From the NCBI GenBank assembly GCA_002083985.1, contig MTER01000022.1:1-12301 (forward strand): a DNA stretch of 12,301 nt, given 5' to 3'. A program made the position numbers and the translations under genes. How positions within the stretch are numbered: position 1 is the first letter of the stretch; each line of letters starts with the position of its first letter. Under the pieces are notes generated by a model that made no database searches, was not told the origin of the DNA, and saw only the letters and a program-made list of their open reading frames with translations. This document shows, one piece after another, positions 8,571 to 11,800 of this stretch. This DNA is from Candidatus Altarchaeales archaeon A3 (GTDB taxonomy: Archaea > Altiarchaeota > Altiarchaeia > Altiarchaeales > Altiarchaeaceae).

Positions 8571-8642
8571 ATTTGAAATGAAATTTAATTTATAAATTAT
8601 GAACGAATTATTAATAATCTCTCAAAATTTATCGTAACGAAA

Positions 8643-10391
8643 ATGAAACTTTATAGTAATAAAATTTTCACCTCGTTTCACTCGGAGATTTCAAAAACAG
8701 GACAAGTTTTTGAAATGGCGGCAATAACAATATTTATGCTATCAGTTATCTTATCCTATTCGTCTGCTGAAATTACACATTCTACTATAAATTTAACTTA
8801 TGAAGGAAATTTTGAAAAAGAAACAGCAAAAGATATAACCTCACTTCGTTCGGAGATTTCAAAAGCAAGTTTTGAAATAACCTTAATTACAGAAATGCCT
8901 TTGAGCGATGACACGCAAAAAGTCCAAAAAATTTATTCCTGTAAAAATTATTCTATTGAGACCAAAAATGGAAAAGAAACAATAAAAATAAATGTCGGTT
9001 CTACAGATAACTATTCGTTAAATTTCATTGTTGAGAAAAAATTTTATGAAATTAAATTTAATAATGAAAGTAATAATGAAGGAAATGAGTCCGAAATACA
9101 AAATTTTCCCGGCAATATCGGAAATGTTGAATGGAACGAAGAAATAAAGAAAAATGCGGAAAACATTACCTGCGATGTCCATGATGATAACCCGTCTGTT
9201 GAGACCGCAATCAAGGTCTTCAAAATTGCAAAATTTGTTCGTGAATATATCACTTATGATTACAATTCGGAAAATTTATCTGCAAAGGATGTATTTAGGT
9301 ATAAAAAAGCAAGATGTATGGGATACACAAATTTATTTATTGCGATGTGCAGAAGCATAGGAATTCCTGCAAGAGCCATCGGCGGAGTAGCCGCTACAAA
9401 CCATGGATTTGAAAGACACAGCTATGCAGAGGTCTTTATTAATGAGCAATGGATTTCGATAGACCCGACTTTTGGACAATTTCCTGCAGATGCGTCACAT
9501 ATAGCAATTTACAAAGATAATGAAGCAAGAGGAATCAGTGTTGAACTAAAATTTCTCGGAAAAAATGTCTCGCATACGGGAACTATGGATGCAAAATTTA
9601 TAGCATACAAAGATGAAAATTTAATAAGCGGAAAAATCATTAACAAAAATTTAACTGGAAAAAACTCAGTTATGCAGCTCAATGCCGAACTGACAAACGG
9701 CAAAAATTTTTATGTATTTGGAGTATGCAAAATTTCATCAAAGTTAAAAGCAGATGAAGATGAAAAAATTTTCTATTTATCACCTTATGAAAAAAAGAAC
9801 ATAACCTTCATAGTTTTCGTTCCGGAACAAGAAGGAAATTTTTTATATTTTTATAGTGCAGGTGTCTGGTGCAGTGATTTGAACTTGACAACAAATTTTA
9901 CCGTTGATACTGATAAAACGGGAAATATTTATGAGGGCGTTGTGATTGAAAATATAAACACACATTCAAAGGAAATTGAGCTGAAAAATTTAAATGAAGA
10001 AAGCGAAAACATGGTTGATATTAGTATAATCGTGCAGGATAAAGATAAAAACATAAAAAGTATGTGGGAAAATAAATCTCTTATTATTGAAAAAGGTGCG
10101 GATTATGTTTTAAAGTACGATATTGAATATCCTGCTCAAAATTTTACATTGGGAGTAAAATGTGCCGGCGAGAACTTTTCTGACAATAAGGAGGTTGTTG
10201 TTAATGTCGGAGGGGGCGTAGATAATGGGATTGGCGATGCGGGGGATGAAATTTCAAATCAATATCAAAATTTTATTATAGAAAATTTATGGTTAATTGT
10301 ATTTGGTTGTTTGATTATTATGGTTGTTTTAATTTACTTTAAATTTAAGAAAAATAAGTCCCTACTTAAACATAAAAATCCGAATAGTTAA
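8643..10391 (+). CDS. Exported, membrane-anchored transglutaminase-like protein
   Basis: A 582-residue protein with an N-terminal hydrophobic signal segment (about 26-42), a transglutaminase-like cysteine protease domain (about 165-290) and a C-terminal transmembrane helix (about 547-567) followed by a Lys-rich tail, so most of it should be outside the cell. The catalytic triad is visible: Cys225 in ARCMGYTNLF, His259 in ERHSYAEVF and Asp274 in SIDPTFGQF. Residues about 295-540 look like beta-rich, adhesion-type domains with many Asn-x-Ser/Thr sites. Two in-frame copies of a palindromic element add residues 10-25 and 66-79. The first lies between the basic N terminus and the hydrophobic core of the signal. 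A start at Met25 (8715) would give a shorter, cleaner signal peptide. Likely role: cell-surface proteolysis or crosslinking; substrate unknown. Confidence 0.85.
   Translation: MKLYSNKIFTSFHSEISKTGQVFEMAAITIFMLSVILSYSSAEITHSTINLTYEGNFEKETAKDITSLRSEISKASFEITLITEMPLSDDTQKVQKIYSCKNYSIETKNGKETIKINVGSTDNYSLNFIVEKKFYEIKFNNESNNEGNESEIQNFPGNIGNVEWNEEIKKNAENITCDVHDDNPSVETAIKVFKIAKFVREYITYDYNSENLSAKDVFRYKKARCMGYTNLFIAMCRSIGIPARAIGGVAATNHGFERHSYAEVFINEQWISIDPTFGQFPADASHIAIYKDNEARGISVELKFLGKNVSHTGTMDAKFIAYKDENLISGKIINKNLTGKNSVMQLNAELTNGKNFYVFGVCKISSKLKADEDEKIFYLSPYEKKNITFIVFVPEQEGNFLYFYSAGVWCSDLNLTTNFTVDTDKTGNIYEGVVIENINTHSKEIELKNLNEESENMVDISIIVQDKDKNIKSMWENKSLIIEKGADYVLKYDIEYPAQNFTLGVKCAGENFSDNKEVVVNVGGGVDNGIGDAGDEISNQYQNFIIENLWLIVFGCLIIMVVLIYFKFKKNKSLLKHKNPNS
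8670..8716 (+). repeat. Coding palindromic element, copy A
   Basis: ACCTCGTTTCACTCGGAG followed by a perfect 11-base inverted repeat, ATTTCAAAAAC (8688-8698) / GTTTTTGAAAT (8706-8716), around a seven-base loop. In the transglutaminase frame it reads TSFHSEISKTGQVFEM (residues 10-25). Removing it would join the basic start MKLYSNKIF to the hydrophobic stretch AAITIFMLSVIL, which makes an ordinary signal peptide. Confidence 0.75.
8838..8878 (+). repeat. Coding palindromic element, copy B
   Basis: ACCTCACTTCGTTCGGAG, then the inverted repeat ATTTCAAAA (8856-8864) / TTTTGAAAT (8870-8878) with a five-base loop. It is read in the same frame as copies A and C, giving TSLRSEISKASFEI (transglutaminase residues 66-79). 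The first 27 bases match copy C except for one base (GAGATTTC versus GATATTTC). Confidence 0.8.
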
Positions 10392-10394
10392 ATT

Positions 10395-10739
10395 TTAGGT
10401 GTTCGCCATTTTAATCATAGCGTCAATATATTCTTGGGTTCTCATCAAGTCGTTTCACTTCATTTGTTACACGCAGTATAGATTGAAGTTCAGGGATTAA
10501 TATATCTTGAAACTCTATGAACTCCAGAACATTTAAGAACTTTTCCAAAATATCAAGTCGTTTGTTGTCATGAATTGGTATTTCCAGTCCTCTTCTAACA
10601 TCGCGATATTCTTTTCGGAGTTTTGGAAGATTATTAACAAATCAGCCCATTCCAAAATTCCGTTACCTGCAAACTCTCTAAAAAACCGATTGTTGGCTTT
10701 TATAGTTTTTTTTAATCTAATGAGGGGTATCCTATGGTG
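10395..10739 (-). pseudogene. Frameshifted gene remnant of unknown family
   Basis: No intact frame exists, but the minus strand reads as a continuous helical protein if two frameshifts are allowed. Segment 1 (10739 to about 10635) gives RIPLIRLKKTIKANNRFF then REFAGNGILEWADLL. Segment 2 (about 10632 to 10440) gives LPKLRKEYRDVRRGLEIP, HDNKRLDILEKFLNVLEF and PELQSILRVTNEVKRLDE. Segment 3 (about 10438 to 10395) gives TQEYIDAMIKMANT and a stop. Composition is protein-like throughout, with alternating hydrophobic and charged residues. A stop lies just upstream of segment 1 and no start codon is seen, so the 5' end is lost. I do not recognise the family. Confidence 0.55.
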
Positions 10740-10840
10740 TTAAATTTGTATAAAAATTTGTAAAAAAGTTCTTTCTATTTTTTTATTCTTTTATTTTTTA
10801 TAGAAATTGAAAAAATCACTGACATTTCAACCATCTCAAA
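10740..10840. other. T-rich non-coding sequence
   Basis: A very AT-rich stretch with long T runs on the plus strand (about 10775-10800), flanked by the short inverted repeat TTCTAT/ATAGAA. It could terminate plus-strand transcription coming from the transglutaminase gene. No coding potential or recognisable RNA is seen. Confidence 0.4.
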
Positions 10841-10959
10841 GAATATGCTCAATAAGAGTGGATGTTATTTGTGATTTTTTGACGGTTACGAGTGATTTAC
10901 TCCTTAATATTGAGCAAGTTCATAATTATTAATAAATCCACTTAATATTGAGCATATTC
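10841..10959 (+). repeat. Dispersed intergenic repeat, copy 2, with terminal inverted repeats
   Basis: About 119 bases bounded by GAATATGCTCAATA...GTGG (10841-10861) and its inverse CCAC...TATTGAGCATATTC (10938-10959). The outer 14 bases pair perfectly. Inside, 10848-10921 is the same sequence as copy 1 at 7514-7587, and CTTAATATTGAGCA occurs twice (about 10903 and 10941) as a direct repeat. There is no open reading frame and no clear target-site duplication. It resembles a MITE or a structured repeat. Confidence 0.7.
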
Positions 10960-11034
10960 CATTTACTTATTAAATTTCATTAATTTTAAAATTTGATTTG
11001 AAAGTTAATTATTTACAAATTTTATAAATATAAA

Positions 11035-11691
11035 ATGAATGTCGAATTACTATCCATCACCCCTGATGCAGAAAAGCTGATAGAAACGGCTGGTCGCACC
11101 GCTTACCAGTCATTAAATAAACAGAGAGATGGCACAGAAAAGACATTTGTCAAAATGTTGGTCAAAAGAGGGCATCTTTCTGTCCTGGAACACGCTTATG
11201 CAACATTCAGAATTTCTGGTGTTTCTAGGGCATTTACGCATCAGTTAGTAAGACACCGCCTATGTTCCTTTACCCAGCAGTCGCAAAGATATGTGAGCGA
11301 GGAAAATTTTAATTACACAGAACCGGAATCTATTAAGAATGATCCGAAGGCACATAAGCTTTTTACTAAATTTATGGATGACGCAAAATCACTTTATATG
11401 AAATTACAAAAATCAGGGCTTAAAAATGAAGACGCAAGATTTGTGCTGCCTAATGCTGTTGATAGTGCCATAGTAGTTACTGCAAATTTCAGGGAATGGA
11501 GACATATAATTGAATTACGGGGAAAGCCGGATGCGCAATGGGAAATAAGAAAAGCAGCGGTTGAAATTTTAAAAATACTTAAAACCCACGCACCTGAGGC
11601 ATTTGAGGACTTTGAGATTGATGAAGAGAGGGAAATTATAACCTCACTTCGTTCGGATATTTCAAAAATCTCTGCGGTTTTTAAAACATGA
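11035..11691 (+). CDS. thyX: Flavin-dependent thymidylate synthase ThyX
   Basis: A 218-residue FAD-dependent enzyme that makes dTMP from dUMP using methylene-tetrahydrofolate and NAD(P)H. The signature RHRLCSFTQQSQRY (residues 73-86) matches RHRxxSxxxxSxRY. Other conserved parts are AGRTAYQS (19-26), HLSVLEHAYATF (47-58), RFVLPNA (135-141) and NFREWRHIIELRGKPDAQWEIR (151-172). The catalytic core ends near THAPEAFEDFEID (184-196). The remaining 20 or so residues are atypical: EEREIITSLRSDISKISAVFKT is largely encoded by copy C of the palindromic element, and the stop codon overlaps the end of a MITE-like element. The core appears intact, so the enzyme should work. The ATG at 11035 gives the usual N terminus. 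It converges with the metF-like gene. Confidence 0.95.
   Translation: MNVELLSITPDAEKLIETAGRTAYQSLNKQRDGTEKTFVKMLVKRGHLSVLEHAYATFRISGVSRAFTHQLVRHRLCSFTQQSQRYVSEENFNYTEPESIKNDPKAHKLFTKFMDDAKSLYMKLQKSGLKNEDARFVLPNAVDSAIVVTANFREWRHIIELRGKPDAQWEIRKAAVEILKILKTHAPEAFEDFEIDEEREIITSLRSDISKISAVFKT
11641..11687 (+). repeat. Coding palindromic element, copy C (thyX 3' end)
   Basis: ACCTCACTTCGTTCGGATATTTCAAAA matches copy B with one difference over 27 bases. It is followed by a less perfect inverse arm (ATTTCAAAAA / TTTTTAAAAC). The frame is the same as in copies A and B and reads TSLRSDISKISAVFKT. It forms the non-conserved C-terminal tail of ThyX. Confidence 0.75.
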
Positions 11692-11756
11692 CTTACGCAA
11701 TTCACCTTGTAAAAGAACTTATAAAGATAAGAATTCGTATCTGTTTTGCGTAAGTC
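11690..11756. mobile_element. MITE-like element with 11-base inverted repeats
   Basis: A 67-base unit bounded by perfect terminal inverted repeats GACTTACGCAA (11690-11700) and TTGCGTAAGTC (11746-11756). The middle holds a near-palindrome, AGATAAGAATTCGTATCT (11725-11742), with a single mismatched pair. Ends of this GACTTACGCA type resemble those of transposon-derived MITEs. No transposase is encoded and no clear target duplication is seen. Its first bases form part of the thyX TGA stop codon, and as a transcribed hairpin it could also terminate thyX mRNA. Confidence 0.55.
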
Positions 11757-11800
11757 CTACAAAATAAGAAAAAAGATAGTCAAAAATAAAAAATTTGTGC

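Follow-up and report, generated by a model that had tools for sequence, protein, structure and literature searches.

What kind of sequence adds nearly the same short peptide to unrelated proteins of an archaeon? The question is raised by a 12,301-base contig (G000:C22), here called the window in its full length, of G000, a metagenome-assembled genome (MAG) of Candidatus Altiarchaeum that comprises 1.45 Mb in 209 contigs and is an estimated 65% complete. An earlier note on this DNA had described a palindromic element inserted three times in coding sequence. The three copies are present, and empty-site comparison together with hairpin ends refines their limits to 8669..8716 (unit A), 8837..8878 (unit B) and 11640..11687 (unit C), each with its folding, GA-rich strand on the minus strand. 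Each is not the single palindrome first described but a pair of adjacent hairpins with covarying stems. Very probably the three units belong to a family of non-autonomous mobile elements of Candidatus Altiarchaeum, built of two adjacent hairpins and mostly 42–50 bp long.

Units A and B lie in the gene of a transglutaminase-like protein (PF01841; 8643..10391, plus strand, 582 aa), whose signal peptide and C-terminal membrane segment were read from the sequence and not predicted by a tool; unit C lies at the end of the gene of ThyX (PF02511; 11035..11691, plus strand, 218 aa). Host families here and below were assigned by Pfam. Within these open reading frames (ORFs) of 582 and 218 codons, all three units are read in the frame T-S-(L/F)-(R/H)-S-(E/D)-I-S-K. 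Unit B (42 bp, 14 codons) is internal to its gene and adds ITSLRSEISKASFE, so that it would be translated if the transglutaminase-like gene is; its hairpin 1 occupies 8837-8855 and its hairpin 2 8856-8878 (ATTTCAAAA / TTTTGAAAT), both on the minus strand. Unit C (48 bp) makes the C-terminal tail of ThyX (TSLRSDISKISAVFK); its hairpin 2 is imperfect, and the outer arm may extend to 11689. Unit A (48 bp, 16 codons) falls in the signal-peptide region, with hairpin 1 at 8669-8687 (minus strand) and hairpin 2 at 8688-8716 (minus strand; ATTTCAAAAAC / GTTTTTGAAAT, perfect 11-nt arms 8688-8698 / 8706-8716). Its coding status hinges on the start codon: with ATG 8643 it is within the protein, and with ATG 8715 it is in the leader RNA. 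Without unit A, the leader preceding SSAE and starting at ATG 8643 would have 23 residues; by eye, five of the eight transglutaminase homologues (P0122-P0126) have leaders of about 21–24 residues, and the remaining homologues differ. Unit A had been taken as a diverged copy indicating several waves of spread. It does differ from B and C, in part through compensating changes (inner stem GT/AC, not AC/GT), which mark it as a structural variant, more than a copy in decay; in place of several waves, many co-existing structural subfamilies are the better statement.

The same architecture, hairpin 1 beside a hairpin 2 of variable sequence, recurs within the genus set of four genomes (G000, G001, G002 and G003). 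Units were collected from a contig sample: 61 of the 209 contigs of G000 (559 kb, namely C1-C20, taken blind to hits, 40 contigs chosen for hits, and the window), the first 20 contigs of G001 by number (one trimmed to 20 of 52 kb) and the first 20 of G003. Unit densities from this sample are biased because 40 own contigs were picked for holding hits. A scan of 946 kb for hairpin 1, requiring two inner pairs and allowing at most one mismatch in the constant bases, gave 205 matches (G000 135, G003 46, G001 24) versus 3 in one dinucleotide shuffle; at two mismatches the scan loses discrimination (39 vs 32).

On the folding strand, hairpin 1 reads n-TCCGA-RY-loop-RY-GAGGT-n'. A first alignment found the core in several different longer contexts; in most copies, the base preceding ACCTC is complementary to the base following CGGA, and the 7–8 bases between hold a two-pair stem with compensating changes (AC/GT, GC/GC, AT/AT, GT/AC). 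Almost every loop fits RNA or RNNA (R, purine; N, any base), GAA, AACA, ATCA, GTAA and GGA being examples. The constant bases of hairpin 1 are unpaired and the varying bases are paired. Among 76 non-redundant copies, selected without a pairing requirement, Watson-Crick pairs occur at the outer, first inner and second inner positions in 64, 70 and 68 copies; permutations that shuffle the 3' letters average 32, 39 and 51.5, and 0 of 5000 reach the observed value for each pair. Because permutations keep the relatedness among copies, what carries weight in the covariation is how many different pair types occur. The tandem GA mismatches of hairpin 1 stand between C-G and R-Y pairs. Sheared-GA motifs are stable in single-stranded DNA, and tandem GA mismatches with GNA loops fit them; no pertinent paper on the motif appeared among the matches listed.

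Hairpin 2 follows directly. It could be scored in 194 of the 205 copies (11 were left out for a short flank or an N), of which 180 reached score 6 against 21 of 194 shuffled, and 155 reached score 8 or more against 2 of 194. Its stem is mostly ATTT..loop..AAAT outside and very variable inside (for instance ATTTCAAAA, ATGTTCGGAC and ATTTCCAAAAAC). A hairpin 2 score of at least 7 defined 110 distinct units for the length test, 92 of which measure 42–50 bp; the commonest lengths, 46 and 47 bp, account for 44 of the 110. Copying of hairpin 2 from the target was considered and dropped, since no consistent match was seen by eye for unit B or for the units in the iron-containing alcohol dehydrogenase (Fe-ADH) and methionyl-tRNA synthetase (MetG) genes described next.

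The insertion of whole units is visible at empty sites: in DNA alignments, each of four genes was compared with three same-genus orthologues, and the units are missing from all of them. Unit B corresponds to a clean 42-bp gap in all three orthologues of the transglutaminase gene and to an exact 14-aa gap in all eight homologues aligned with it (32 homologues found, 9 aligned including the query), among them that of Ca. Altiarchaeum hamiconexum (P0126). An Fe-ADH family protein (L068) likewise shows a clean 42-bp gap in its three orthologues, and the insert occurs in 0 of 39 aligned homologues (723 were found, 120 listed and 40 aligned including the query). Glycerol-1-phosphate dehydrogenase was rejected as a name for this host, whose one Pfam assignment is to the family of iron-containing alcohol dehydrogenases. 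In MetG (L055), a 48-bp unit is missing from the three orthologues and the adjoining bases have diverged. A glycogen-debranching enzyme (L068) carries four units at three sites, all missing from the three orthologues: site 1 is 45 bp with diverged adjoining bases, site 2 is a gap of 81–84 bp read by eye as two 42-bp units, the second degenerate, and site 3 is a clean 45-bp gap. Unit C is likewise not in the ThyX orthologues L097 and L098 or in L100, the ends of which differ. L100 (G000:C28:5377-5985) is a second ThyX of the same MAG, 88% identical and lacking unit C, and represents either a paralogue or a second strain in the bin.

A T precedes the unit in 74 of 76 copies, and T or AT stands on both sides of the inserted unit. 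With AT as the typical end of a unit, duplication of 1–2 bp of target is indistinguishable from none. Sister units in unrelated genes (Fe-ADH and a RACo-like protein) are identical at 40 of 42 bases; therefore, whole units are copied. A 69-bp miniature inverted-repeat transposable element (MITE) of the same genome exists in a form without the unit and a form with a 46-bp unit at the junction TTTT^CACC. Among its copies, 15 (46–71 bp) lack the unit and 21 longer ones carry it; thus, the unit entered one MITE, which then spread. This MITE family has the ends TGTTGC..GCAACA (L023:146 and similar, L029, L034) and occurs in forms of 46, 69 and about 100–125 bp, the long forms carrying the double-hairpin unit. 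Units also form head-to-tail arrays of five (in G003, L136) and four (C98). The first, at L136 4906-5114 (G003:C15), has its units 48 bp apart in a putative 200-codon ORF on the opposite strand; the second, at L050 1703-1849 (G000:C98), consists of near-tandem units in a MobB gene with spacings of 45, 35 and 45. As far as sequence comparison can establish it, the units are dispersed, inserted nearly always just behind a T, copied whole and able to form head-to-tail arrays.

Abundance was counted by searching the whole genomes, not the contig sample, with CTTCGTTCGGANATTTC, CCTCACTTCGTTCGGA and the hairpin-1 pattern. The core is over-represented, as had been expected: CTTCGTTCGGANATTTC at no more than two mismatches has 153 matches in G000 versus 1 for the reversed pattern. 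With at most one mismatch, CCTCACTTCGTTCGGA has 102, 26, 48 and 137 matches in G000, G001, G002 and G003, and beyond the genus it matches in 1 of 27 other genomes tested (G026, 3 matches). The hairpin-1 pattern has 172, 66, 68 and 282 matches in the same four genomes (588 in total), versus 0 for the reversed control. In 25 other genomes of the phylum it has 0–9 matches each, 36 in all versus 10 for the controls, with the most in G019 (9), G026 (7) and G012 (6); 19 of the 36 were inspected at locus level, and a complete double-hairpin unit was found at one of these 19 loci (G026, L175). The counts of 0–9 elsewhere and the complete unit in G026 indicate that most of the family lies within the genus, with occasional members outside. 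In other families of the class, the same mini-hairpin core has a different repeat-like context, GAAGTT-CCGARCGRAGCGAGG-AATTTGGGC, seen at L163, L181 (G012) and L185 (G026). Viral carriers were considered and set aside: two exact 17-mer matches in a viral collection were judged no more than chance (an estimate made with no control), and by eye no adjacent hairpin 2 was seen at either.

Which known system does the unit resemble? Rickettsia palindromic elements (RPEs) are found in frame in many unrelated metabolic genes of Rickettsia, as described in PMC10969869 and PMC3733652, and measure about 150 bp according to the former; RPE presence is also treated in PMC2694212. The Altiarchaeum unit is likewise a dispersed palindromic element, in frame in unrelated genes and missing from orthologues, as the earlier note had proposed. 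The likeness drawn is one of behaviour: RPEs are bacterial, whereas the unit is archaeal, mostly 42–50 bp long and made of two hairpins with covarying stems. Behaviour of the RPE kind would also include translation of the insert in a working protein; what the unit shows in this respect is open frames and a low-confidence loop in a structural model (see below). Among the matches listed in the open-licence PubMed Central (PMC) literature, there was no report of such an element in archaea, in agreement with the claim that the archaeal version is undescribed, and nothing related to the core sequence words appeared in the titles and abstracts of the matches listed. Archaeal MITEs are similarly small, non-autonomous and present in high copy. 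Unlike them, the unit consists of two side-by-side hairpins with no terminal inverted repeats spanning it and itself inserts into MITEs; any target duplication would be of 1–2 bp at most. The mitochondrial double-hairpin elements of Allomyces are presumably a comparable system. Repetitive Hairpin-forming Elements with complementary substitutions are described for sponge mitochondria in PMC2800124. The Altiarchaeum unit shares with the mitochondrial elements adjacent hairpins, complementary substitutions and copies within genes; those are organellar and of unrelated hosts, and the likeness drawn is one of architecture.

IS200/IS605 elements insert behind a short target, which they duplicate little or not at all, a behaviour that counts in favour of an explanation we consider unlikely. 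It holds that the units are remnants or derivatives of such a system, that of repetitive extragenic palindromes (REPs) and REP-associated tyrosine transposases (RAYTs), in which a Y1 HUH transposase cuts the folded strand and the transposase gene has been lost or is missing from incomplete MAGs. REPs, according to PMC3733652, combine a constant motif with a variable stem, form tandem groups and are mostly intergenic, with some copies in frame inside genes of several bacteria, including tRNA synthetase genes; the unit shares the constant motif and variable stem, the tandem groups, the mostly intergenic location and the in-frame copies within genes, one of them a tRNA synthetase gene. In the same paper, CGTC REPs have no dedicated transposase, and two of the RPEs, RPE-4 and RPE-6, are matched to short REPs of this kind (PMC3733652). 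By inspection, however, the consensus lacks the unpaired terminal GTAG or CGTC tag: the bases that stay constant, TCCGA..GAGGT, enclose a small stem-loop, and its end bases are T or AT. In place of a short unpaired motif, the unit has a covarying hairpin in which mismatches are conserved. Unlike for GTAG REPs and RAYTs, no Y1 transposase partner (PF01797) was found in any of the four genus genomes, although the same search was positive in 5 of 14 named genomes. In its workings the unit resembles the coding palindromes of Rickettsia or the double-hairpin elements of mitochondria, and the marks of REP/RAYT membership are absent from it.

The units might instead be functional RNA or DNA sites (for transcript processing, termination or protein binding) kept by host selection, with the copies in genes as by-products. 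Compensatory changes that preserve shape would be expected of such sites, and the location of the copies offers something in the same direction. With genes called simply as long ORFs, called coding sequence makes up 76% of the total but holds 21 of 181 collapsed loci; genes are therefore strongly avoided, or cleared by selection. The element, presented at first as one of coding sequence, is mainly intergenic and also found within MITEs: of the 160 loci outside called genes, 62 border a contig edge, where a called gene is missing on one side, 64 lie between genes of the same direction, 20 between convergent and 14 between divergent genes. Compared with all gaps, divergent loci are somewhat rarer (14/98 vs 86/366) and convergent ones commoner (20/98 vs 53/366). 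This positional bias is weak, however; units stand in housekeeping genes with unit-free orthologues, in MITEs and in arrays, and Rfam returned no match at E up to 5 for window 8600-11760. Host-selected sites are thus an improbable origin of the family.

Inside genes, the length of the mobile units is constrained. Multiples of 3 make up 14 of the 18 distinct units in ORFs of at least 150 codons versus 24 of 92 elsewhere (Fisher p = 5.5e-5); counted by distinct hairpin 2, the shares are 14 of 20 in such ORFs and 28 of 82 elsewhere. Because choosing long ORFs favours open frames, a second test took copies flanked, in any frame, by two parts of one orthologous protein from another species. Nine of the 205 copies qualify: six units, all multiples of 3 (MetG, Fe-ADH, three in the debranching enzyme and transglutaminase unit B), and two copies of the MobB array, while L139:2167 was rejected as a unit, being a chance match within sequence that is ordinary and conserved in the orthologue and not among the 110 units. 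L136:5114 is a doubtful entry of the ORF lists. The lengths indicate that most retained units inside genes keep the frame. A single reading frame holds for the three window copies; across the genome, at least two frames are in use (TSLRSEISK and NLTSFGD), and the opposite strand carries a few of the units. The GA-rich strand is opposite the coding strand in 15 in-gene units versus 2 (16 versus 5 by another gene call), and stop codons alone would give about 62:45; with such small numbers and some doubtful ORFs, this strand bias may be real. In an AlphaFold2 model of the Fe-ADH protein (mean pLDDT 92.8), the only segment below 50 is 298-310, and the insert occupies 296-309 between helical regions, which fits a flexible, tolerated loop.

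Removal of in-gene units from the message, or their skipping by ribosomes (intron-like or byp-like), would add no peptide, and would sit well with hairpins inside housekeeping genes and with a stop codon within the MobB array. Such a process needs neither multiples of 3 nor open frames, yet 14 of 18 versus 24 of 92 were counted, and the six orthologue-flanked units outside the MobB array all fit the frame, which leaves it very improbable. Convergent low complexity, that is, AT-rich palindromes near a chance word, would account for the A/T-rich arms and is in our view already refuted by the counts of 205 vs 3 matches in real and shuffled sequence, of 588 vs 0 control matches in four genomes and by the orthologue sites without the unit.

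How would such a mobile unit move? The covarying stems, the arrays and the want of an evident target duplication suggest an enzyme that recognises the shape of a folded single strand, probably of DNA, and inserts this strand 3' of T or AT while duplicating the target little or not at all. Since units typically end in AT, each insertion would restore the target site, and the arrays would be explained in this way. The specific step at single-stranded DNA is a tentative proposal, to which we give slightly less than an even chance. Insertions that break genes would mostly be lost, and the survivors would be translated as flexible loops of about 14–16 residues. We think the units selfish and nearly neutral to the host.

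Several observations weigh against the mobile-element reading or its details. Nearest-neighbour folding of unit B yields hairpin 2 and not hairpin 1 as drawn, and for the Fe-ADH unit it pairs the two halves with each other; because thermodynamic folding fails to predict it, hairpin 1 rests on covariation. Four of the 18 units in long ORFs are not multiples of 3 (41, 43, 46 and 52 bp). Three of these stand near ORF ends (residue 5 of 216, 480 of 501 and 759 of 766), and the 46-bp exception is MITE-borne (residue 10 of 393 in L060; residue 83 of an N-containing 168-codon ORF in L043). The 35-bp unit of the MobB array introduces the stop codon, in what is either a broken gene or a misassembly. 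No mobilising enzyme common to the genus has emerged from the MAGs used, which are 65–87% complete: Y1 transposase (PF01797) is found in none of the four, and reverse transcriptase in one, G000, so that both were rejected as genus-wide partners. The reverse transcriptase (PF00078) is L189 (G000:C124:2411-3010).

Two further elements of the window are distinct from the units. Directly behind unit C lies a 67-bp MITE-like element (11690..11756) with 11-bp perfect terminal inverted repeats, GACTTACGCAA/TTGCGTAAGTC. The ThyX stop codon (11689-11691) spans the junction, its last two bases (GA) being the first two of the MITE-like element. Seven exact-ended copies of this element occur in the 61 own contigs, and none in the 20 contigs of G001 or the 20 of G003. 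At 10841-10959, a 119-bp stretch with perfect 14-bp inverted ends (GAATATGCTCAATA) is present as a single copy in the sequence sampled. The contig is assigned to Candidatus Altiarchaeum on the named matches of its ThyX protein, of which the nearest is Candidatus Altarchaeum HURL_140 at 88%, with CG2_30_32_3053 lower in the ranking at 72%.

The segments are absent from the orthologues compared and the core is strongly over-represented, so neither observation that would have spoken against an inserted repeat was made. For the family, an architecture in which sequence is free and shape is kept predicts a mobilising enzyme that binds one folded strand. It is possible, although we hold this more doubtful than the single-strand step itself, that the units represent a minimal kind of transposon known by its folded single-strand shape alone (tandem G-A mismatches, a purine-rich loop of 3–4 bases and a nearly free stem), moved by a non-Y1 archaeal enzyme and supplying housekeeping enzymes steadily with extra peptides. 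The units extend to archaea the coding palindromes that are known from Rickettsia and from some bacteria rich in REPs, and sister species provide the empty sites. For the organism, the units provide a natural series of insertions of about 14–16 residues in methionyl-tRNA synthetase, Fe-ADH, ThyX and glycogen-debranching enzyme, and because these enzymes are well studied, their tolerance of added peptides is directly measurable.

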